From the NCBI GenBank assembly GCA_026770585.1, contig MU646381.1:239247-264079 (forward strand): a stretch of 24,833 nucleotides of DNA, given 5' to 3'. Numbering within the stretch: the first letter of the stretch is position 1; every line of letters begins with the position of its first letter. Made by a program: the position numbers and the translations under genes. The DNA is from Baffinella frigidus (lineage: Eukaryota; Cryptophyceae; Cryptomonadales; Baffinellaceae). The notes beneath the pieces are model-generated. The model searched no databases. It was not told the origin of the DNA and saw only the letters and a program-made list of their open reading frames with translations. Positions 151 through 18,700 of the stretch are shown here, piece after piece.

Positions 151-3100
151 TCCACTTAGCAGCAACCAAAGATATCCCCCCTCGGATTCTCGGGGAAAAT
201 TCCGGTTGAAATCCATAGCAATAGATAAGATTCTAGTACAAATCGATGATCTGTCCCCCGCTGAACTGCACCCAGTTTGCACGGATCAACGTTTAGGGAT
301 TAGGGTTGAGGGTTTAGGGATCAGGATTTGGGGTTTAGAGAGATTAAGGTTTAGAGGTTAGGGATTAGGGTTTAGGGTTTAGGGGTTAGGGTTTAGGGTT
401 TGGGGATTAGGGGTTAGGGATTAGGGTTTAGGGTTTGGGGTTTAGGGTTCGGGGGTTAGGGTTTAGAAATTTGGGTTTAGCAATAAGGGATTAGGGATTA
501 GGGATTAGGGATTAGGGATTAGGGATTAGGGGTGAGGGATTAGGGATTGGGGATTAGGGGTTAGGGATTAGGGATTGGGGATTAGGGGTTAGGGATTAGG
601 GGTTAGGGATTAGGGATTGGGGATTAGGGATTAGGGATTATGGATTAGGGATTAGGGGTTAGGGATTAGGGATTAGGGGTTAGGGATCAGGGGTTAGGGA
701 TTAGGGATCCGGGATTAGGGATTCGGGGACCTCGACTCGGGTGACCGACTTGGTGTGCCCCCGTAGTGTGCACACCTGGGGTTTCGGGTTTAGGGTTTAG
801 GGTTTAGGGTTTAGGGTATAGGGTTTAGGGTATAGGGTTTCGGGTCTCGGGTTTAGGATTTTGGGTTTTGGGTTCGGGTTTCGGGTTTCGGGTTTCGGGT
901 TTCGGGTGTAGGGTTTAGACCAGGCCCCCAAACGTCAGCGCAATCTTCACCTCTGGCACCCCCCTAACAATATACCAAGGGGGGGGGGGGCAACCGACGC
1001 ATCTCAACACCAGATCCCCCTCAGAGTTAATCTCAGAGTTAATCTCAGAAGATAACTAAATCAGTTCCGGCACCCTCCGAACACCACACGGTGGACTACG
1101 GGCCTTTCATCAAAAGTCAAATTGCCCCGATGTAATTAACTTTAAGGCTTTCCTGGTGCAACTTTAGTCACGTTACCCCCCAGAATCTGGGGTCCCCGAA
1201 ACCCTCGTAGTCAACCGAGTGGAACATACAAAAGGGAGAAACTGCCACTTCTCAACACCATTTCCCCACCAGAGTTAATCTCAACAGACAACTGAATCAC
1301 TTCCTTTTCAATAGGAGGTTGGATAGGAGCCTTTAGTTAGGGCATAGTAAACTTAATTGGGCCTTCTAATTAAATCAAACCGCTAATTACGGAACTGATT
1401 TGGTTATCCTGGGAGATGAAAGTGCACCATGGCACCCGTCGCGGCGTTGCGGATCTTGATTTCCCTGTCTCTCGACCCGCACACGACCCACTTCCCGTCC
1501 GGAGAGAAACAGATCGACTTGACTTCGTACAATTTCCGCACCGTGCACACCTGCCACACCACGCCAGGCAATTACTGGGAATTTCAGGACGCAACGTTTA
1601 ATTTCGTGGTACTAAATGAGTGTGCGGTCCCACGTGAGAGGCAGCTCCTCGTCCTTTCCACGTCCGATTTGCTACCCCGAACTTCGGACCCGGGTACAAA
1701 ATTTAAAACAAGACTTGTATCTGAAATTCCGACTTATGACCTGGCGTGGAGAGGCGGATCAAACACCCTTTTTAAAACCCGGGGAGCTGTACGAGTGAGG
1801 TAGAGTGTAGCAATTTTTACATGTGTGGTCACGTGTCGGCCCGCTTTTCGGAGAGACACGTGACCAACTCCGTACAACCCGCCTACAATCGACATGTAAC
1901 AAAGGTGCCTGGGTAGCCTCGTGTGTGCCAGCAACCCTCATCTGAGACCGCATCCAGGATAAGCCCAGCAGGCCACGCCAGGCGATTAGTGGGAGTTTCA
2001 AGACGCAACGTTTCGTTTTCGTGGTATAAATGAGTGTGCCCAGAACTTGGAACAAGCAATTCCTCGTCCTTTCCACGTCCATTCCGGACACAAAAGTTCG
2101 GATCCGGGTATTTTTTTTAAAATACGACTTGCATCTGAATTTCCGACTTGTGACCTGGCGTGAAAAATGCCCGCAGCATACCCTAGACCCTAGACCCTGA
2201 ACCCCACCACCCTACACACGCACTTTCAACAAGAAGAATGCGAGAACCTCACCAAACACCCCCACCACCCCGCCACCCGCAAAGCACTCCCGCACAGCTG
2301 CTCACCTCAGACAGGACCTCACGTGCCGTGGGCTTATATCTCCTTATAGTGAACGTGACTGTGTGTCAAGTCACTTGGGTCATCCTACACGGGGTAGTAT
2401 CCCCAGACAGCGCCGGTCCCGCCCCAAACCAAAAGTGTCTCCTTCCACACCCTCGCCTTACAAAGGCCACCCTCCATGGTCGCATCCTGAGGGTGGTAAA
2501 GTGGAGGTGTCCACTTTAGCCATGCCAACATCCTACATATAGGTGCTTATCCGGTGGATATGAACTCCCCTTTTGGGCGAAAAGGCTGTGGCCGCGTGGT
2601 CCTTATAGCTCTTGTCACTGAGGCGGGCCCGTTTCTTAAGGCTCATAGACCTTTGTATCACTCAACTCAAGGCTGAAGGGCCTCATTTAGGACCTGTATC
2701 GAGAGTAATAAAGAAGAAGAAGAAGGGTGCTCGCTGCAGTCGTAAACCTCTTTTCCCGTCTCGACGTCCCAGATCGTGACGTCTGCTCCCTACGGTAGGC
2801 AACACCGTAGGGTCCTACGCAACTACCCGGATCCGAACGCACCTCGGCCCCGGTCTCGGCGTTCCAGATCTTCACGGTATTGTCCCCCGCCCAGCTGACG
2901 ACGCGCGTGCCGTCTCGAGAGAACGCAACCTTTTTTTAGGGTTCAGGGTTTAGGGTTTAGGGTTTAGGGTTTAGTGTTTAGTGTTTATGGTTTATGATTT
3001 ATGATTTATGGTTTATGGTTTATGGTTTATGCTTTAGGGTTCAGGGTTTAGGGTTCAGGGTGTATGGTGTACCAGCTTAACACCTGCCGTATGCGCCGCG

Positions 3101-6100
3101 ACAGGGCACGCCAGATTGACCTCCAGCAAGAGACATCCCCCAGTACCCGGGAACATGGCTGCCATCTCGGATCGATCTTCCATCGTGCAGATGCATCCGT
3201 CCTTGCAGTCGTGCGTCCTTGAAGTCCACACCTAATCCGGAAACATCGTTTGATTTGATGAAACTGGGCAGCAAAAGTTTCTACACATAAGGCTCCTACT
3301 AGTGATAGTAAAGAAAATGGGCAGTAAATTCCTTGTAGGCGTGAGTCCTCGACGTCCTTACCTGAGAAACACAAGACTTCGGGTACGGGTACGAAGACCG
3401 GGTACGGGCACCCTACGGTAGGCAATAGCGTAGAGTCCTACGCAACTACCCGGATCCGAACGCATCTACCCGGATCCGAACACGCCTCAGCGAGAAACAC
3501 TGCTAAGTGGACAGCCGTGACGGTCACTGCTCCATAGCCGACAAGGAACCTTGCATCAGCAGAATTGTTCTGGGTCGGGTCGGGCGTAATTTCGACGAAA
3601 TCGCGCCGTTTGGTGACATGTTACGGGTGGGTGATGCTGACTGGGCATACAATTCATGCCTGAGATAGCATAAAAGATCGTTTTCTGGAATTTCCCGACC
3701 CGACCCCGCATCGAAGCCAACCCAAATTCTACAATACTTCTTCAATGGATCCGCATCTCTCGACGTCTCAGTCTTCACGAGCCCGTCAGCCGACCCGTCT
3801 CTTCGGGTACGGGTACGAAGACCGGGTACGGGCACCCTACGGTAGGCAATAGCGTAGGGTCCTACGCAACCACCCGGATCCGAACGCACCTCAGCTCCGG
3901 TCTCGGCGTTCCACATCTTCACGAGCCTTCGGGTACGGGTAATAAGACCGGGTACGGGCACCCTACGGTAGGCAACAGCGTAGGGTCATACGCAACTACC
4001 CGGATCCGGACGCAACTACCCGGATCCGGACGCACCTCGGCGCCGGTCTCGGCGTTCCACATCTTCACGAGCTGGTCATCCGACCCTGGTCGAGGGTTTA
4101 GTGTTCAGGGTTTAGTGTTCAGTATTTCGTGTTGAGGAGTTGGGGGATAGGGGTCGGAGGTTGTTTGTAAGGGTTTATAATTCAGTTTTCACGGTTAAGG
4201 GTTTCGGGTTTGGGGTTTCGGGAGGAACCGCTGACGACGCGCTTCCCGTCTGCAGAGATGGCGATCGACCTGACCGTCCCCGAGTGGCCCGCCGCAGGGC
4301 ACCCCTTGTTCACACCTCGCTGTTGAAGAACGAGGGCGGTGCAGATGCAGACGCCCTCGCCTGAGTGTCCGATCGAAACCACCTGTGATCGAAACGTTTT
4401 CATTGATCGAAATCCGTCCGTCTAAACGATTAGTATAAACGTCTAGCTAAACGATTAGTAGCACCTGTGGCTGACCACGGCAGGTCATTACTGGGAATTT
4501 CAGGACGCACCGGTTCGTTTCGCGGTACTAAATGGCACGTAGCCACCATCGATTTGACAGCTACTCGTCCTTTCCACGTCCGATCCGAATACAAAATTTC
4601 GGGTCCGGGTACAATTTTTTAAAAAAGACTTGCAGCTGAAATTCCGACTTATGACCTGGCGTGGAATGAAAACGTTTTGATCAAACGGCACCCCATCGGC
4701 AGGGTGAGAGTTACACCCAGAGGGCACTGGCAGGTGGAGTGCCCTGTCAGCGTGCGCAGAGAGAGGGGGAGAGAGGGAGGGAGGGAGGGAGGGAGGGAGA
4801 GGGAGGGAGGGAGAGAGAGAGAGAGAGAGAGCGCAGCTGCAAAGCACACACCAATCAGACCCCTTCCAAAACAATGCCTGCGTGCAAAACGCCCGCACAA
4901 AACACTTGCAACACAAAGAATGTCAGAAACCTCACCAAACACCCCCATTTCCTCACCACCCGCAATGCACTCCCAAAACTCTCCTCACCTCCTTGCCCTC
5001 ATCCGGGGACATGTTTAATTCAAAGGAAAATGAATCCCTATTTGTTCATAGGACTTGGACGAAGGTTAATTAGGGCCCTAAGTAAATTTGATTAGGGCCA
5101 GAATCCGGTTTGATAGGCCATTTTCTTTTTAAATTAAACATGTTCCCGGATGAGCCCGTCTCGACGTCCCAGATCTTCACGAGCCCGTCAGCCGACCCGT
5201 CTCTTCGGGTACGGGTACGGAGACCGGGTACGGGCACCCTACGGTAGGCAACAGCGTAGGGTCCTACGCAACTACCCGGATCCGAACGCACCTCAGCTCC
5301 AGTCTCGACGTCCCAAATCTTGACGGTATTGTCCCTCGAAGCGCTGACGACGCGCTTCCCATCAGGGGAGAAGGCAAAGGAGGTGACCGCGCCCGTGTGC
5401 CCCCCCACCTTGCAGTCACGGTTCACTTGGACGCGACCGTTTTGGTTCAAGGAGCACGTGCAGTTGGCAGAGCAGGCGTGACCGAGCGTCAGCGCCTGCC
5501 AAAGCGCCCCACGTCACCACTCACGACTCCAGGCCACTCCGCCTTCACGACCAAAGCCTCTGCCGAGCGAGGACGTGATTCACTTTTCAAGATTTTTTAA
5601 AAAGTTCACCTGAATTGTAAAGGAAATGGACTTTTAAGATGAAAAAGCTTGGACCGGATTTCCGGTCCTGGCTTTTAAATGAACCCCGTGTTGCCTCGAC
5701 AGCGGCTCTGGATGCATGTTCCTTCTCCATGGTGCAGGTGCAGTTGCCGGAGTAGGTGTGACCAAGCGTCAGCACTTGCCAAAGTGGAGGCGTCCACTTT
5801 ACTGCCAAAGTGGAGGCGTCCACTTTAGCACCCAGCGTGAGCACCTGCCAAACCGTCCCACATCACCACTCAGGATACCCTTTAGCCGGTTTCTGTGGTC
5901 CACAGGTTATGAGCTAGGGAAGATTTCATATGGAAACACTTCTAATTTATAAACCTGGTTTCAATGAAAGTTACAACACGTTTGCTTTAATATTACTAAT
6001 AAAGATCGTTCTGTGTAGTAAATTTCATGGAATCCAGTTAATAAATTATAAATGTTTGCGTATGAGATTTGACTGCTGCGGTCCTCTGCACCGGGGGGCT

Positions 6101-9100
6101 TGATGTGATCCGAAAGGAAGCATGGCCTTTCTGCAGAACCAGTTCCAGTGTCCGCCTATCGTGGGAGTTAAAAGAACCTAAAGGACCTAAAGACTCCCCC
6201 ACATCAGCAGCATGCGAATCTGCTAAAGCACACTGCGGGATACGAAGGGAGTTTCGGCCCAAATCGGGCCACCTTTCCGTTGCCTTATCCGTAGGAACCC
6301 CCCTATGTCCCTACGGGTTGCCTACCGTAGGGTCCTAGGTCTTATCGCTTAGGGATATTCAAAATCCCTTCGAAATCCGCTGTGTGGATAGTGTGTTGGA
6401 CATGTGGAAAAGTCAACTTAACTTGGGGCAATTAACTTTAAGAATTTTCTAGTGCAAATTTGGTCACGTACCACGCGGAATTCCGCGTAGTGGAAACCCT
6501 CGTAGTTCACCTAGTGGTCACCACATCTTCAGCACGTCTGCAATACACCATGCTGTACCACTTCCCAAACGTTCCGAGGCGGGCTCGTTTTTAAGGCTCG
6601 TAGACTTTTGTTTCACTCAACTCCAGGCTTAAGGGCATATCTAAGCCCTTCATCGAGAGTAATCAGGAAGAGGAAAAGAGTAATCAAGAAGAGGAAAAGA
6701 AAAGACTTCCCAAACAAACACTTGTCCCGCACCATACCACTCGAGAATGCTGCATCACCCTATTTACATGTGGGGTCGTACAAATTTGTACCAGCATAAC
6801 GTTAATTGTCTTCAGGTAAGTTGACTTTTGATGAGAGGTTCGTAGTCCACCGTGTGGAGTATGTTCTCAGATTACCTGAGCCCCGGTCTCGGCGTTCCAA
6901 AGCCTGAGGAAATTGTCGTAAATTGATTCGCTGACGACGCGCTTCCCGTCCGGCGAAAAAACGACAGAGACGTGTGAGTCCCACGTCAGCGTCCACTCCT
7001 GCAAAAAACACCCTCGAATCACACACTCTCCCCCAACCACTCAGCAGGTACGGTTGACCCACACGAGAACGCTAGAGGGGCCTTTTTCAAACCGAACATT
7101 TAAAATCTTTGCTACACAAATTCCAAAATTTGTACCAGAACATGGTAAAAGTAACCTCGCGCCTGGTATATTTGTTTCCGGGCGCGAGGTTGCGTTGCCT
7201 TATCCTGGTACAAATTTTTACAACCCCACATTTAAAAAGGCCCCTCTAGCATCCTCGATTGGACTTCGAGAATCTATCCAGAGTTGATTCTCACCCGGGA
7301 AACAAGCCAGTCCGCAAATCTCGCCAAAGTCGAGAGTGGGACGTCTCAAAGCCAAAGTGGAACCTCTGTTAATTTAAGTAACAGTGGAAACCCCGGGCGA
7401 AAAGGACAAGGGTGGCTGCGAAGTGAACACTTCGCACCCTCTCCCTCCTAACAGCGCCGAATCGTGGCACCACATCTACCTCTCAGGACCCACTGAAACA
7501 CGATCGAGCGGTTTTCGCAACTGGGGGCCACTCACCGATATGAAATCATGAACAAGTGGCCGGAATTGGAGCCCTTGTTCGTAATTTCATGTCTGTTGGT
7601 GGGTCACCAACTGTTCACTGCTAGCCACAAGATTTTGTAATAGTCAACTTTGTAAAAAACGGGAGAACGGTGTAGTAAAATGGACGCCCCTGGGGCGTTG
7701 TGGATTCTAAAGTGGACATTTTCAAGGGGGGTTGACTTTAACAAAAAATCCTGGCTAGCAGTGCAGTTGCGAAAACCGCTCTAGCTCACCGCAGGGTCCG
7801 TTTCGGCGTTCCAGATCTTCACGAGATTGTCCGCCGACCCGCTGACGACGCGCTTCCCGTCTGGAGATATCGCGACCGCGTGGACATTTTTTGAGTGCCC
7901 CGTCAGCGTGCGCTCCTGCAATACAATACACCCAAGATTCAGCGACAAAACATCCCTCAGACACCACCCGAGGCCAGAAAAGGAAATATTTTAAAATCGG
8001 GGTTCCTTTACAAGTGGGGCGGTATGTAGCAATTTTCGCACGAATTTGGGGAATTCTAGCTCTGTCCCACTTCGATTTCGTCTCATCATCAATTCGCCCC
8101 CCCAAAATTTATCGGGTGAGTGAGAAATTTCGGGGGGGGCGAATTGATGATGAGACGAAATCGAAGTGGGATAGAGCTAGGAATTGGAGATATCCTGACG
8201 CCTGATCCGTCAGGAACGTGACCAACCCCGCCCGTGACTGGTACAAACGCAACAACCCACATTTAAGAAATACCCCCCCTTCCAGCCTCGAGTGGCAAGC
8301 TTCAGTCCGGCAAAAAGGCACACGAACCCCCCGCTGCTCGCGATACATCATTGTACAGCAGCGTACCACGGCACGTGAGGCTGGCTGACTATTCTCAAGT
8401 TGAAATGCTTGGTCTTTGCAGTTAACCTGGTCCGAGACTGGCTGGCTATTCTTAAGTTGACATGCTTTGGATGTGGTACAAATCCGCGCGGAAAAGAGCC
8501 CGGGCTCTAGACCAAATTGGTGAGCCCGAATAGTCTGCGACAGAGCTAGACAGTAGCGCTCGGGAACGTTGCACACCAGGGCACACCAACCTCCCCTTGG
8601 ACCACTTCCAAAGGACAGAATGCTCGAAACCTCACGAAACACCCGAATCGCCTCACTGTCAGGAACAAGTACGGACACCCGTTTTCTTCAGAGACCTCGA
8701 CGTTGCACACGGATGACAGGCGCGCTATCCCTCAAGTGACCAGTAGGCTCATACGCCCTACCGTAGGGCCCTATGACCTGCCTAGGACTTCCACGGGCGA
8801 TTATTTGCCCGTTGGTCACTTAAGGGATGCAGTGCGGACGTGTCAACCACCAGTACTCGGCTTCCTCGGAGGCCTACGAGATGGGCCAGGTACCCTCAAC
8901 GCACTCCCACAAAGTTCCACGCCAGATGGGAGGTGGGAGTTGATATTTTTTAACCGCATCTGAAAGCGGTTGTTGACTTTTGAAAACCACTACCCTCAGA
9001 GGGAATTGACTTTTGGTGACCCCTTCCAAGGCTCTGGCGTGGCTGCTCACCAAGGCGCCCGTCGCAACGTCCCAGATCCTGACAAGCTTGTCATGCGACC

Positions 9101-9623
9101 CGCTGACGACGCGCTTCCCGTCCAGAGAGAATGTGACCGAGGAAATTTCGGCCGTATGCCCGCTCCAGGTGCGTACCTGCGAGACAAAAAATCTGCAATG
9201 AAACTTCTCGCAAAAAACATTCGTGGTCAATAGAGCGATGGTGGTACATGTTGGCCGCTTTTCAGTTTGCCGGTTTGCCGGTTTGCTGATTTCATTTGAA
9301 CCAGAAAGTTAACTAAACGCCCTTCAAAACGCATCGTTTCGAGACTTCTGATACAAATCAAATGAGCAAACCGCCAAACCGGCAACCCGAAAAGCGGCCA
9401 ACATATAACACCATCGCTCTAGCGTAGGGTCCTCCGCAACTACCCGGATCCGTACGCACCTCGGAGCATGCATCGGTGTCCCAGAAAACAAGAGCCAGCG
9501 TGAACCCCCGAAAACAAACACCCCCATCACCTCGCCTCCCGCAACGCACTCCCGCAAAGCTGCTCACCTCCGCTCCAGTGATGGTGCCCCAGATCCTGAC
9601 GTTCTTGAACGACTTAACACAGG

Positions 9624-9696
<73 letters not shown>

Positions 9697-9704
9697 TCTC
9701 TCTC

Positions 9705-9740
<36 letters not shown>

Positions 9741-12700
9741 CACTCCCACAGAGCTGCTCACCTCAGCTCCAGTAGCGGTGTCCCCGATCTTGACGTGCAT
9801 GGGCAAGTTAACTTTTGAAGAAAGGTCCGTAGTCGACCGTGTGGGTAGGTCACCTTGGCGCCAGTAGCGGTGTCCCAGATCTTGACGGTCATGTCGTTGC
9901 CTCCACTGACGACCAACTTCCCGTCTGGCGAGAAATCGACGCAGTTCACTGGCTCCTCGTGACCTTTGAGCGTGCGCTCCTGCAAGACAAAACTTCATCA
10001 GATAGGGGCTCCTGCGGTGCATCCACGATTAAGCGACGAAATGTCCCCCAGAAAATCTTCGGTCCTGCAAAAAGGCACACGGCACCTCCAGCGTCAACAA
10101 CTTCATCAGATAACGTATTGCAGAAAACATGCGTGCATCCCCAGAAACATGCTCCTAACAGCGTGTGCCCCTCCAACGCAAAACATTGCCACCGGAGAGA
10201 GAGAGTTATTCATTGACAACCAACTGGTGCGGATCCACTTGATCACCGAGATGGTTGTAGCGGACCGGCCTCGTGCCATGGGTGTTTGCTTTCCCGTTTC
10301 CCGGTAGCCTTATATCTACCTTCCTACCACCAGCCCTCAGAGTGGGAGCAGATCGTCTTTTTAAACCCCCTGAATTTGTACTGGAGGCCGCCGGAATCCG
10401 GCGGCCTGTGGTACAAATCAGGGGTCTCGACCAAGAGGATTTGCTCCCACTCTGAGGGCTGGTAGTAACTGCTACCACACCATCTTCTCAGACCACTTCC
10501 AACACCACGCTCGCTCGAAATCCCTCGCAAAACACCCGCCTCATTTCGACACCATGAACTTATCTCGAAAAAGGAGCTCTCAAACTCGGTTTCTTAAGTC
10601 AATTCCCCTTCAAATATGTTAACTCATTCTTTTCTCTACACAAAAGTTGACACATTTGAAGGGGAATTGACTTAAGAAAACGAGTTTTAGAACTCCTTTT
10701 CTGAGATAAGAACACACGCACACAAGGTCTAGATCTGCCTGAGTTTAATTCCGGCTCGTCCTAAGAGCCGTTTATTCGCCCTTGTGTACTGGATTTCTGC
10801 TCTAGAATACTTTTAGGGACGAACCAGAATTAAACTCAGGCAGAGATAGAAGGTGCTCAGGTCACTGTTTCCGTGTGCCCGTCTTGACGAGCTTGTCAGA
10901 CGACTTCGGGTACGGGTACGAAGACCGGATACGGCCACCCTACGGTAGGTGGTACCGTAGGGTCCTACGCAACTACCCGGATCCGAACGCACCAGTTCAC
11001 GGTCTCCGTGTGCCCATCCAGGGTGCATATCTGCCAAACCAACAAGGAAAGGGTCTAGCCATGAACCCCTTTCCGGGTGAAGTGCCCCCTCAGGCGAAGT
11101 GCCCCGCCAGCGTGCATAACTGCAAACCACGCTCCTACCAGAAACCTCGGCGCCACACATCTGTGTCATGTGTGGCGCTCAGGTTTCTGATAGGAGCGTG
11201 TACCACGCCAGGGCATAAGTCAAAAATTTATTTTTACGCCCATCTACGAGTTAAGATGATTTTCACCCGGGAAACACGCCAAAAGTCAAGGAATTGGAGC
11301 CTTTTGCCGGCGGTATAATGTTTCATCTGTACCACGAAACACTTTTAGCGCGAAACGTTGCGTTTGAAGTCCCCACTTATGATCTGGCGTGGCCACCTGT
11401 TCACAACTTTAAACTATCGATGCAACATGGGCTTCGTTCAAAAGCTGAGACCAGAAATCCGGTCTCAGCTTTTTTCTTTTAAAAGTCCATTTCCCTTAGG
11501 ATTCAGGTGATTTTTCATTAAAACCTTTAAATGGAATGACGTCCTCGCTTGGCAGCGGTTCCAAACACACTCCTGGCGCACCTGGTGCTCAACCTTGGTG
11601 CATTCCCAGAAACATGCTCCTAACAACTCGGTGCAAGCCACGAAAACCCCTACCTGCGCACCTCGGCTCCTTTCTCGGTGTCCCAGATCATCACAAGGCA
11701 GCCCCACGACAATTCGGGTACGGGTACGAAGACCGGGTACGGCCACTCTACCGTAGGCAATAGCGTAGGGTCCTACCCAACTACCCGGATCCGAACGCAC
11801 CTCGGCCACGACCCGCTGACGACGCGCTTCCCGTCCGACGAGTGGGAGTTATCAAAACCTAAAGGACTTATCTTCGTATACGGTGTATACCTGGTGATAT
11901 ACGACTCTGGGTAGGTGACTCTCCAGAGCATCTTGTGCTCGTGTATTTCGCCTCCAACATCATACGTATCAAAAACTAAAGGACTTGAAAGGAAACAGAG
12001 CAGCGTACCTCAGCACCCGTCTCGGTGATCCAGATCTTCACGAGCCTTCGGGTACGGGTACGAAGACCGGGTACGGGCACCCTACGGTAGGCAATAGCGT
12101 AGGGTCCTACGCAACTACCCGGATCCGAACGCACCTCGACCCCGGTCTCGGCGTTTCAGATCTTGACGTATGAACCCTACGGTAGGCAACAGCTTAGGGT
12201 CCTACGCAACTACCCGGATCCGAACGCACCTCGGCTCCGGTCTCAACGTCCCAGATCTTCACGGTGCCATCGTGTGACCCTGGTTGAGGGTTTAGGGTTC
12301 AGGGTTTAGTGTTTATGAGTTAGGGGATCGGGGTTGGAGGTTGTTTGTGAGGGTTTAGAATTCAGTTTTTACGGTTTCGGGTTTGGGGTTTCGGGAGGAA
12401 CCGCTGACGACGCGCTTCCCGTCCGCCGAGATCGCCACCGAGTTCGCCCCTGCTTCAGGGTGTGGAATTTAGGGTGCAGGGTGCAGGGTGCGGGGTGTAG
12501 GGTGTAGGGTAAAGGGTTTAGGGTTTAGGGTTAACGTTTAAGGGTTTCAGGTTTGGGGTTTGGGGTTTGGGGTTTAGGGTTTCGGGTTTAGGTTTGGGGT
12601 TTGGGGTTTGGGGTTTGGGGTTTAGAGTTTAGGGTTTAGGGTGCAGGGTTGACGGTTTGGGGTTTAGGTTTTATGGTTCAGGGCTTAGGATTTAGAGTAT

Positions 12701-15700
12701 ATAGTTTAGGGTTCAGGGCTTGGGGTTTAGGGTTCAGCGTTTTGGGTTTTGGGTTTGAGGTTTAGGGTTTAGGGTTTGGGGTTTGGGGTTTGGAGTTTGT
12801 GGCTTGGGATTTAGGGTTTGGGGTTTTGGGTTTGGATTTTTGGATTTAGGGTTTAGAGTTTGGGGTTCGGGGTTTAGGGTTTGGGGTTCAGGGTTTGAGG
12901 TTTGGGGTTAAGGGATTAGGATTAAGGGTTTGGGGTTGGGGGTTTAGGTTTGAGGTTTTGGGGTTTAGGGTTTAGGGTTTAGGGTTTAGGGTTTAGGNNN
13001 NNNNNNNNNNNNNNNNNNNNNNNNNNNNNNNNNNNNNNNNNNNNNNNNNNNNNNNNNNNNNNNNNNNNNNNNNNNNNNNNNNNNNNNNNNNNNNNNNNNN
13101 NNNNNNNNNNNNNNNNNNNNNNNNNNNNNNNNNNNNNNNNNNNNNNNNNNNNNNNNNNNNNNNNNNNNNNNNNNNNNNNNNNNNNNNNNNNNNNNNNNNN
13201 NNNNNNNNNNNNNNNNNNNNNNNNNNNNNNNNNNNNNNNNNNNNNNNNNNNNNNNNNNNNNNNNNNNNNNNNNNNNNNNNNNNNNNNNNNNNNNNNNNNN
13301 NNNNNNNNNNNNNNNNNNNNNNNNNNNNNNNNNNNNNNNNNNNNNNNNNNNNNNNNNNNNNNNNNNNNNNNNNNNNNNNNNNNNNNNNNNNNNNNNNNNN
13401 NNNNNNNNNNNNNNNNNNNNNNNNNNNNNNNNNNNNNNNNNNNNNNNNNNNNNNNNNNNNNNNNNNNNNNNNNNNNNNNNNNNNNNNNNNNNNNNNNNNN
13501 NNNNNNNNNNNNNNNNNNNNNNNNNNNNNNNNNNNNNNNNNNNNNNNNNNNNNNNNNNNNNNNNNNNNNNNNNNNNNNNNNNNNNNNNNNNNNNNNNNNN
13601 NNNNNNNNNNNNNNNNNNNNNNNNNNNNNNNNNNNNNNNNNNNNNNNNNNNNNNNNNNNNNNNNNNNNNNNNNNNNNNNNNNNNNNNNNNNNNNNNNNNN
13701 NNNNNNNNNNNNNNNNNNNNNNNNNNNNNNNNNNNNNNNNNNNNNNNNNNNNNNNNNNNNNNNNNNNNNNNNNNNNNNNNNNNNNNNNNNNNNNNNNNNN
13801 NNNNNNNNNNNNNNNNNNNNNNNNNNNNNNNNNNNNNNNNNNNNNNNNNNNNNNNNNNNNNNNNNNNNNNNNNNNNNNNNAGAGAGAGAGTGAGTGAGAG
13901 AGAGAGGGAGAGGGAGAGAGAGTGAGAGTGCGTGAGAGAGAGAGACAGAGAGCAAGAGAGCGAGAGCGAGAGCGAGCGAGAGAGAGAGATAGAGAGGTCA
14001 CTGTGCACCTCGGCTCCTTAGTCGGATAGCGAGGGGGGAAACGGGTCGGGCACGAATTAGGCAAATTGGACGTGACCTTTACCAGTCGCGTCCAGTTCGT
14101 ACAGGAAAAAACTGCCCAGCTGGGAAGGTTGTCCATAAATTGCCCGAATGATTTGCCCCCTCGCTATTCGAGCAACGCTCGCGACCTCAGCTCTACCCCC
14201 ACAGCACTCCCACGAAGCTCTACACCGCACTCCCTCAAAGCCCGTATCTTCGGGTACGGGTACGAAGACCGGGTACGGGCACCCTACGGTAGGCAATAGC
14301 GTAGGGTCTTACGCAACTACCCGGATCCGAACGCACCTCGGCGCCGGTCTCGGTGTTCCAGATCTTCACGAGTCGGTCCTCGTGCGCTGGTTCAGGGTTC
14401 AGGGTTTAGTGTTCACTGTTTAGTGTTTAGTGTGTAGGGGTTAGGGGTTAGGGGTTGGAGGTTGTTTGCTAGGGTTTAGGATTTAGGGTTTAGGGTTTAG
14501 GGTTTAGGGTTTAGGGTTTAGGGTTTAGGGTTTAGGGCTTAGGGTTTAGGGTTTAGGGTTTAGGGTTTAGGGCTTCGGGTTTCGGGTTTCGGGTTCCGGG
14601 TTTCGGGAGAAACCGCTGACGATGCGCGTCCCGTCCAGAGAGAATGCCACGGAGAACACTGCGCCTGCGTCTCCGTTCAGCTTGCGCACCTGCACAACGC
14701 ATTGAGCTGAGAAAGACATCCAGAACTGCACGCTTTCCTGCACAACCCATGATGGTGCTTTGGTGCTTTAGTGCTTTGTATTACACTCACATCGAAGACC
14801 ACGCCCGCCTCACTCTTGAGGGGACGGACACAATCTACGGATGAGCTCCTCGACCCCACCCACCCGGGTCCGGCCGAGCTCCCTTTTCACGCACCTTTTT
14901 GAGCCGAGAAAGGCATCCAGAACTGCACGTTTTCGGCGCAAGATTCACCAACACGATCAACTCGTTGGTTTTGAGGTCAGGATTCCCTCGGGCGGACGCT
15001 GGATTCTGTTCGCGTGGGCGGGAAGGGTCGCAGAGAGAGCGAGAGAGCGAGAGAGCGAGCGAGAGAGAGAGAGAGAAAGAGAGAGAGTACCCCGCGTTTG
15101 CGTGACCGGTCAGCTGTCGACTTAGTGTTAGGACAAGTTGACCCCCTTAAAACGTCGACCCCCTTAAAGTTCAATGTTTTAAGGGGGTCGACTGTTATTG
15201 ACGGCGTCAATCACAGCGAATGGAGGGAGGAGCCGCTCCTCGCCCTGCCACGCCAGATTCTTGGAAGGGGTCGCCAAAAGTCAATTCCCCGGAAGGAATG
15301 AGGGCAAATGGTTTACTTTGGGCATAGTTGAACGCCAAAATTGGCGTTCCCAAGAGGAGCTACCCCCTCCAGCAGTCTGGCGTGGTTTGCTGATCGCACA
15401 GAGCAGGAATCACAATTCTGGCTCGAGAGTTCTGTTCCGCCAGAGGACAGCTCCAAGATGGTAGTTGTACGGATCCGGGTAGTTGCGTAGGACCCTACGC
15501 TATTGCCTACCGTAGGGTGCCCGTACCCGGTCTTCGTACCCGTACCCGGTCTTCGTACCCGTACCCGAAGTCTTCGCACCGCGTCCAAGGCCATGCTCAT
15601 CCGGCAAGTATTTTTCTTTTAAAATTATGAATGAAAATTACTACACAAGTGCTTGCAATGTATCATCATTTTATGCCTAACATAACATGTCTACCCTTAT

Positions 15701-18700
15701 CTTCGGCGCTGGAAGCCGTAAGAAGCGAGACAGATTCTGTCGTGTTCCGAAACTACGTGCAAAGACCCGTGCACCCCGGCCACTCGAGGCTAGAAATGTG
15801 ACTATTTTAAACCAGGGATTCGTTTCCAAGTGAAGAAAAAAAAGAGAGGTGTGGTAATTTTCTCACAAATGGGGGCGTTTGGTCACGTTACTGGGGGAAT
15901 TCCCCCAGTAACGTGACCAAGCCTGCCCGTGACTGGTACTAAATTTAACAATCCCACATTTAAAATACTCCCTCTTCCAGCCTCGAGTGAGGAGCTGCGG
16001 TTCCCCGCTACGGGTTTCCACGAGAGGGCATGCCGTCGGAAGCTCTGAGGGCGAGATTTGACCATCACTTTGACCAGAAGCTGGCCAGTTTGACCGGGGG
16101 CTGGCCAGGCCCCAGCCCTCCATGCGGGGAAATCTCATACGGACGAGTATCCATGTTGAATACGACCTGGTAACGAAAATTACTACACACCGGTTTTACT
16201 ATTACTTGTATGCACCAATTGTGTAGTAATTTTCGTTGCCAGATCGTCCGGATCGTATTCAACTTGAATAATCGGCAGGATCAAATCATCCCCAAAAATG
16301 TGACGGGAAAGCAACCTTTGGGACTCCTCTCAAGTACACACCACGCCAGAGGGCTCGAGGGAAACTGACGCCTTATCCACGTCAGATCTGACGTTGTCAA
16401 CTTAAGCATTCAAGGGAGTTCCCCTGAAAGATGTCAAAAGTGGATGTTTCAAGCCCTCTGGCGTGGCAGGGACAGCATCGCGCCTCAGTTCTCGTCTCGG
16501 CGTTCCAGATCTTCACGAGCCTTCGGGTACGGGTACGAAGACCGGGTACGGGCACCCTACGGTAGGCAATAGCGTAGGGTCCTACGCAACTACCCGGATC
16601 CGTACAACTACCCGGATCCGATCGCACCTCAGTTCTCGTCGTGGCGTCCCAGATCTTCACGAAGCCGTCCAACGAACCTGGTTTAGGGTTGAGAGTTTAG
16701 GGTTTAGGGTTTAGGGTTTAGAGTTTAGGGTTTAGGGCTTAGGGGTAAGGGGTAAGGGGTTAGGGGTTAGGGGTTAGGGGCTAGGGGTTAGGGGTTAGGG
16801 GTTAGGGGTTATTTGTCAGGGTTTAGGGTTTAGGGGTTAGGGTCTAGGGTTTGAGGTTTAGGGTTTAGGGTCTAGGGTTTAGGGTTGAGGGTCTAGGGTT
16901 TCGGGACTGACCGCTGACGAAGTACTTCCCGTCTCGAGAAAACGCGACCGCGGACACCTGCCACGCCAGAGGGTTCCAAGGGGTCGCCAAAAGTCAATTG
17001 CCTTTCAAGGCAGTGCTTTTCAAAAGTTGCCACCCCTTATCACAGAGGTTTAAAACAATTCACCCCTCCTCCACTCTGGCGTGGTGCCGAGACAAGAACT
17101 GAGGTGCGATCGGATCCGGGTAGTTGTACGGATCCGGGGAGTTGCGTAAGACCCTACGCTATTGCCTACCGTAGGGGGCCCGTACCGTGCATGTATGCCC
17201 GCCCAGTGTACACTCCGGATTCCCGACGACGCCTGAACAACCTTGTGTGCAGACGCAGGGGCGTCGGGTTTCGTGCCGCGGGCTGGTCCAGACCTGCGAG
17301 CCACGCCAGAGTGCAGTAGGGTGTTGATTTTTTTAAACCGCGTCTGAGAGCGGTTGTTGACTTTTGAAAATCACTGCCCTGAGGAGGAATTGACTTTTGG
17401 CGACCCCTTCCAAGGCTCTGGCGTGGAGGAATGACGGTTCAGGGATGCTGATTCAGGGATTACGATCCAGACAGAGCTGGGGACGCACTGCCACTCGAGA
17501 ATGCTCGAGGATCCTTTTTACATGCAGGGTTCTAAAAAATTGTACCAGGATAGGGCATTCCTACCTCGCGCCTGGTATAATTTGTACTGCCGTGGCCAAT
17601 TTTACATGAAAGTTACCACACAAATACTTACCTGTAAAACACCTCACTTTTAAATAGACCCCTCTAGCATTCTGGTGTGGTGGGCAAGCAGCCGTCGGCG
17701 ACGCGGCGCCTGACCTGCGAGGCATTACGATTCAGGGTTTTCATTTCGCCAGATATTTAAAATAAATGCTCGAAATGCATACGTTTGGCGTGAGAAGTTG
17801 CCAGTTTGGCCACTTCAGGCAGAATCTGACGCTAACAGTTTGCCTTTTGAGCATTCAATTTAAATGCCTGGTGGGATGAGATGACGATTCAGACAGAGCT
17901 AGGAACGACTAGCGTATCACTCAACTCAAGGCTACAGGCCCTATATTAGGACCTGTATCAAGAGTAATGAAGAAGAAGAAGAAGAAGATACCTACGATCA
18001 ACGTCTGCGACAGCTGCGACAGCGCCCACACATCAATGCACACCTGTGTGCATTGACACCCGTGTGCATTGACACCCGTGTGCATTGACACCCGTGTGCA
18101 TTGACACCCGTGTGCATTGACACCCGTGTGCATTGACACCCGTGTGCATTGATCAATGTGAGAGAATCCACTGCTAGCCACAAGATTTTTATTCTATCAA
18201 CTTTGAAGCTATTTCACAGCACGTGTAGTAAACTGGACCCCCCTGAGGGGTCCGAGATTCTCAAGTGGCCAGTTTCAAAGGGGGTTGACTTGAGCAAAAA
18301 TCCTGGCAAAAAGCAGTGGAATGGGACGCGTGTGCACATCTTCATAGGCTAACAGACCAAAAATGGGGTAGTTAGGCCTACGGTATTGACTACGGTAGGC
18401 CGTGGGGGCCTGGGGGGGCTCCTACGAAAAACCCTACGGCCTACCGTAGGTAATACCGTAGGTCTAACTACCCCTTTTTTGGTCCGTTACTCTATTAACC
18501 TGCAAACCACTCGCGAATCAGCCGTGAATAATCTCAGACATGTAGCTCTGCCAGAGTAAATCTGGGCACGTCATTATTAGTTTTAGAGAAGGGGCTCCAG
18601 TACACATTAAATACATTTAGTCTTCTAAATGTATTGTATTACGTGCCCAACTTTACCCGGACAGAGCTAGGACATCTAGCTCTGTCCCACTTGGATTTGG

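Follow-up and report, generated by a model that had tools for sequence, protein, structure and literature searches.

Telomere-like repeat tracts as probable introns in WD40, dynein and kinesin genes of Baffinella frigidus

The locus analyzed here raises the question of how a simple repeat resembling telomeric DNA could come to interrupt several copies of a protein domain at one codon, and whether such a repeat could itself be an intron. It lies in a stretch of 24,833 nucleotides (the window) that forms part of contig C79 in a 382-Mb assembly of Baffinella frigidus, in which many stretches read N; the genome of Baffinella CCMP2293 has been reported at 534.5 Mb in 10,880 scaffolds (PMC9756366), and the assembly used here is smaller. 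The window contains, on its minus strand, a gene with many WD40 blades, and an earlier note made from the letters of the window had proposed that in four of these blades, A to D, a TTTAGGG-like tract acts as an intron. The patterns detected are probably best explained by spliceosomal GT-AG introns consisting of telomere-like DNA, copied together with the blade at this locus and inserted independently elsewhere in the genome.

Removal of the tract restored the blade in all four cases, as had been claimed, and the four intervals agreed exactly with those proposed (Table 1). Every spliced blade scored above the Pfam cut-off of 27 bits for PF00400 (38.2, 37.5, 32.3 and 35.3 bits for A, B, C and D), and reading through to the first stop gave 23.4 bits for blade A and 18.9 bits for blade C, the two scored in this way. 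The candidate introns are all phase 1 with GT and AG ends, starting G/GT and ending ACCAG/ (a slash marks the splice junction throughout); length was divisible by three in D only, and stops occurred in all three frames of A, B, C and D. The shared details were slightly less uniform than first described: the split falls between VSG and S in A, B and D, with C reading VSA/H, and the common acceptor word CCCTNAACCAG is present in three of the four, A ending in CCCTCGACCAG, one base off. The single deviating donor, GTCAGT in D, was as noted, as were four unsplit blades in the same locus. An Rfam scan of the window gave no match at gathering scores, and the best 120 protein matches listed included none identical to the window locus.

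Split blades were also found in a second WD40 gene, locus L056 on contig C29, which has three of them, so that across the two genes tracts occupy four different blade positions, one in the window and three in L056. A deposited Baffinella frigidus protein of 395 residues, P0232, aligns with L056 over residues 1-389 as six exact blocks, and three of the gaps between these blocks hold telomere-like tracts. The protein joins QVYS/VAF exactly and skips two further tracts, and from where it maps we infer that the gene model behind P0232 removes telomere-like tracts. At TLTG/QLNAVY the tract is flanked by perfect 9-bp copies of GGTCAGTTG, and splicing as G/GTCAGT..CCCAG/GTCAGT leaves a single copy. 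The telomere-like introns are patchy among WD40 genes, since in nine WD40 regions of known strand (52.9 kb) six of the seven sense tracts lay in L056 and five regions had none; two tracts were antisense.

The same arrangement was seen in unrelated genes. Joined exons of dynein and kinesin genes matched solved homologues with no gap at eight telomere-like junctions. Dynein heavy chain exons at L018 on contig C13 carry two telomere-like introns, both after DG and in phase 1, and when joined over these and two other introns they gave an 84-residue ungapped best match to dyneins of known structure (E 6.6e-18). Further along the same contig, L040 holds 17 tracts in sense and 0 in antisense (3,064 bp) with intervening exons encoding the dynein AAA region; its junctions HP/LF, NKK/VVY and DNK/VLT showed no gap against the outer-arm gamma chain 7kzm (E 2.3e-27), the gaps elsewhere in that alignment being exons missing or unsure in our reading. 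For kinesins, three stretches were taken from 45 genome matches to PF00225, that on C506 because of a donor-word site inside it and those on C101 and C23 for having several kinesin exons; sense tracts numbered 10, 3 and 7, respectively, and the single antisense tract was on C506. The C506 kinesin (L058) is cut by telomere-like introns at MG/EAH, at SSR/SHT within the NEKSSR/SH motif and at LAT/VIQ, and the joined protein had no gap at any of the three against KIF3B (E 2.9e-23). In the paralogous C23 kinesin (L060) the SSRSH stretch is unbroken where the C506 kinesin is cut. GT and AG were at the ends in 15 of 15 junctions chosen for clear homology, a set from which dynein DK/VE and SG/KST were excluded for ghost copies or gaps. 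Duplicated exon pieces also lay in introns of several loci, the window among them: three of RTLKPGG in L019, two of VGPTLSG in L040, and three VDLAGSES starts in L058, each with a telomere-like tract before it, and the introns of L018 contain two copies of KARDAADKLNQQ and a third copy of its continuation. Unequal recombination between introns of similar sequence could generate partial duplicate exons of this kind.

The tracts are thus read as introns because the blades are restored without them, because dynein and kinesin genes, in which tract removal likewise restores conserved protein, are built in the same way, and because exons flanking such tracts are matched by a deposited protein. For the four blades of the window we consider this reading strongly supported by the sequence.

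A search of the genome for like introns, which the earlier note had recommended, found 73 sites for the donor word with at most two mismatches and 10 for the reversed pattern, so the pattern is not chance; many of the 30 donor-word sites inspected were bordered, by eye, by coding-like sequence. Direction was strongly biased. Among loci with at least two tracts, all tracts shared one direction in 21 of 28, with agreement in 260 of 298 tract pairs, in a set that included the window and two WD40 loci, the others being chosen by the donor word (L007, L009-L011 and L038 were dropped for overlap). Where the strand was known from protein (16 loci), 61 of 66 tracts had the C-rich strand in the transcript, for which a binomial p of 2.6e-13 is overstated, tracts within a gene not being independent. 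The figure was 44 of 48 without L018 and C506, which were donor-word picks with the strand read from protein, and in the window itself sense and antisense tracts numbered 9 and 2, or 9 and 0 with a stricter length limit. Composition differed correspondingly between strands: per 100 bp, AG numbered 1.89 in sense tracts and 9.52 on the other strand, GT 0.97 and 12.90, and CTRA(A/C) 4.61 and 0.01. GT followed the CAG or AAG at the tract end in 35 of 117 cases, the rate after all CAG and AAG of these loci being 8.7%, as expected for AG/GT borders. In a random sample of eight 10-kb regions, four of them all N, 14 tracts made up 2,757 bp or 16% of 16,788 readable bases, a small sample that may not represent the genome; a permuted-unit control, at distance 4 from the telomere unit, gave zero tracts in the random regions.

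These patterns would be consistent with a mechanism in which telomere-type repeat DNA, its source possibly the telomere or telomerase, enters an exon, probably during repair of a break. The flanking G/GT would then become the donor, and the junction between repeat and downstream exon would provide a CAG acceptor. In the C-rich direction the repeat would offer branch-like CTAAA or CTGAC together with a pyrimidine-rich run in which competing AG and GT are nearly absent, permitting clean removal in the cell, and inserts in the opposite direction, with AG and GT decoys at every unit, would be lost. Given the way spliceosomes choose their sites, selection against such decoys could underlie the strand bias. 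That the repeat itself may supply the splicing signals, as the earlier note had suggested, fits both composition and bias.

Whether the four window introns had one origin or several can be addressed from their internal sequence. A and B have bodies that are nearly copies of each other, CAAACAACCTCCRACCCC inside the repeat is common to A, B and C, and D carries the near-match CAAATAACCCC / CAAATAACCCCTAACCCC; the word ACAAAYAACC is restricted to the minus strand of the window, where its three occurrences fall inside A, B and D. Introns of unrelated loci, by eye, have only the simple repeat in common. A further pattern concerns a hairpin-bearing intron unit, about 89 bp long (GTGCGTTCGGATCCGGGTAG...CCCGAAG), found repeatedly between partial blade exons. 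It had 47 genome matches listed, most with 93–100% identity (40 of 142 candidates scored), 43 of them on contigs with a WD40 match, the contigs without one being C3, C274, C437 and C798. This unit was considered as an introner, but with that distribution it probably travels with blades instead, which suggests that introns here travel with blades as well. It is most likely, therefore, that one insertion was followed by copying with the blade for A, B, C and probably D, D being the least certain. The alternatives left side by side in the earlier note would then each apply in a different place, copying of a split blade fitting these four better and repeated entry of telomeric DNA fitting the genome at large, where three other blade sites and unrelated genes are affected. 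An alternative explanation for the window could be four separate insertions at one codon, steered by a preferred target such as the G/G in GTCAGCGG. The different donor of D would agree with this, as would the position of two dynein and two L056 insertions, likewise after the first G of a glycine codon. The tree of blades that had been proposed for finding a single clade of split blades also failed to group them, but with 69 columns and 14 of 21 inner branches open it is too short to decide, and the split state needed four changes compared with a shuffled mean of 3.8, leaving the tree unusable either way. The unusual internal word common to A, B, C and nearly D, and the confinement of ACAAAYAACC to introns on one strand, make separate insertions improbable.

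The manner in which the tracts arose is a wider issue, and several observations weigh against the explanation favored here. Five of the 66 tracts run in the opposite direction, two of them in the window; among the nine WD40 regions only one had more than one tract and, as said, more than half had none. At TLTG/QLNAVY (L056 sense 5024-5394), P0232 apparently shares the donor read here and takes an acceptor 5 bases further on, seemingly within the downstream copy of the 9-bp repeat, so that the WD40 frame is lost. Repeat units are degenerate: exact CCCTAAA accounts for 408 of the 1434 counted, and several variants are common. The unit of the host telomere was unreadable, ten contig starts being N and each of ten right ends having at most one exact TTTAGGG. 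The kinesin LAT/VIQ intron and L056 3650-4050 hold non-telomeric stretches. Splice-consistent target-site repeats of at least 5 bases were seen 2 times with 0.96 expected in 182 tracts, which is no excess. Non-telomeric words of at least 8 nt shared between the two 36-nt flanks, tried as target repeats, occurred at 23 of 163 tracts with about 3.2 expected and were rejected, many being off the edges and resembling duplicated exon pieces. (Both tests dropped L007, L009-L011 and L038, also L001-L004 and L008 as lying within or overlapping other loci, and tracts near locus ends or touching N, and the splice-consistent test also dropped L061-L080.) It is conceivable from these data that older, ordinary introns were later filled by expanding telomere-like minisatellites, the bias reflecting expansions that kept splicing intact. 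Degenerate units, mixture with other sequence in some introns and the lack of a general excess of target-site repeats are all consistent with this, as is the finding that most of the length difference among the window introns comes from repeat-like blocks. Expansion would not readily account for a repeat that starts no more than about 10 nt from the donor and reaches the acceptor in most of the 15 chosen junctions, nor for homologous blades without an intron while tracts occupy four blade sites in two WD40 genes, the uncut SSRSH in the C23 kinesin or the perfect 9-bp flanking repeat in L056, and we regard it as rather unlikely. Given that the tracts are introns, insertion of telomere-type DNA is the probable origin, because the repeat extends almost from donor to acceptor, four sites are used in homologous blades, unsplit paralogues exist and one clean 9-bp repeat is present. 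It could also be argued that the WD40 locus is a decaying pseudogene whose tracts are plain interstitial repeats, never spliced. Partial duplicate exons do occur at the window locus in repeated units (a 95-bp array), with similar ghost exons in other loci, but all four blades regain their frame, the arrangement recurs in dynein and kinesin genes, which are conserved, and such tracts are spanned by the mapping of a deposited protein, so that this is very unlikely.

Insertion of telomere-type DNA into exons would share features with several known systems. Tandem telomere-type repeats at internal chromosomal sites are what is understood by interstitial telomeric sequences (ITS), which in primates, rodents and the horse were inserted at staggered double-strand breaks with flanking duplication (PMC7215372), and both the short telomere-type repeats inside chromosomes and the flanking duplication, as at the 9-bp repeat of L056, are similar here. 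The same account places zero human ITS in an exon and 31% inside existing introns, leaving an effect on splicing for testing, whereas in the present case the intron seems to consist of the repeat itself. For some mammalian ITS it also describes fragments of telomerase RNA beside the repeat. As in introners (PMC9860276; PMC4457414), one sequence type forms many introns in unrelated genes with splice sites at the ends. Introner families include some with target-site duplications (TSDs) or DNA-transposon terminal inverted repeats and some without (PMC9860276); in our data the intron body is a simple telomere-type repeat, no excess of TSDs was found and the one clear case is GGTCAGTTG in L056. Intron gain in which an insertion or duplication within an exon uses an AGGT-like edge sequence, from a review of the mechanisms of intron gain (PMC3443670), is comparable, except that the filler here is telomere-type DNA. 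The word telomere is absent from the main text of PMC3443670, and cryptomonad, cryptophyte, Guillardia and telomere are all absent from that of PMC9860276. No description of telomere-repeat introns was found among the literature matches listed, as judged by titles and abstract openings.

The window has further repeats among its exons. Long inverted repeats resembling miniature inverted-repeat transposable elements (MITEs) were recognized by eye, of the types CCACGCCAG...CTGGCGTGG and CTAGCTCTGTCCC, and one end of these is the acceptor before blade D. There is also an array of about seven 16-bp units, ACACCCGTGTGCATTG. Positions are given in Table 1.

Table 1. Positions of WD40 blades, telomere-like tracts and other repeats in the window, followed by the split blades of locus L056
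Feature	Position	Strand	Remarks
Intron A	4086..4228	-	143 bp, telomere-like body, phase 1, GTTCCTCCCGAAACC...CCCTCGACCAG
Blade A, first half	4229..4304	-	Upstream limit approximate, by eye
Blade A, second half	4036..4085	-	17 residues
Intron B	12280..12401	-	122 bp, near-copy of A
Blade B, first half	12402..12449	-	Acceptor GCAG/GGGCG by eye, after another telomere-like tract
Blade B, second half	12230..12279	-	17 residues
Intron C	14387..14613	-	227 bp, middle nearly pure CCCTAAA
Blade C, first half	14614..14689	-	26 residues
Blade C, second half	14337..14386	-	17 residues; joined codon Ala
Intron D	16678..16911	-	234 bp, donor GTCAGT, multiple of 3 yet with stops
Blade D, first half	16912..16957	-	Acceptor GGCAG by eye
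Blade D, second half	16628..16677	-	17 residues
Unsplit WD40 blade	9872..9979	-	56.4 bits
Other unsplit WD40 blades	5310-5405, 7808-7915, 9069-9179, 19172-19267		Profile match
Telomere-like tract before blade B	12468..12998	-	Runs into N gap (to 13880)
Telomere-like tract	2935..3061	-	Then TAAAAAAAG/GTTGCGTTC, 12-residue reading
Telomere-like tract	779..918	-	Then CCCAG and 15-residue reading
Telomere-like tract	291..728	-	Directly after 15-residue reading
Intron unit of about 89 bp	3790-4035, 12040-12235, 14250-14340, 16520-16625		Hairpin; between partial blade exons
MITE-like inverted repeats	~15248-15386, 16341-16467, 16961-17084, 18670-18835, 19458-19613		By eye
Array of 16-bp units	18040-18152		About seven units
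L056 split blade QVYS/VAF			Phase 0, 401 bp, spliced 53.2 bits
L056 split blade TLTG/QLNAVY			Phase 1, 222 bp, spliced 44.3 bits
L056 third split blade			Phase 1, 72 bp, spliced 40.5 bits

The origin of new introns is a long-standing question, for which transposon-like introners and the repair of breaks are among the proposed answers. The present findings suggest a new raw material for making introns and, if the explanation is true, a simple telomere-type repeat acts as an intron without first evolving splicing signals. It is possible, as a tentative extension, that telomeric DNA is a standing source of new introns throughout this genome, repeatedly inserted into exons and becoming an intron at once when it enters in the C-rich direction. 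Because of the strand bias, the idea can be tested directly by reversing the repeat. Errors at such sites may also affect other proteins deposited for this genome, and introns made of the same repeat may explain, through unequal recombination, the duplicated exons found between them.

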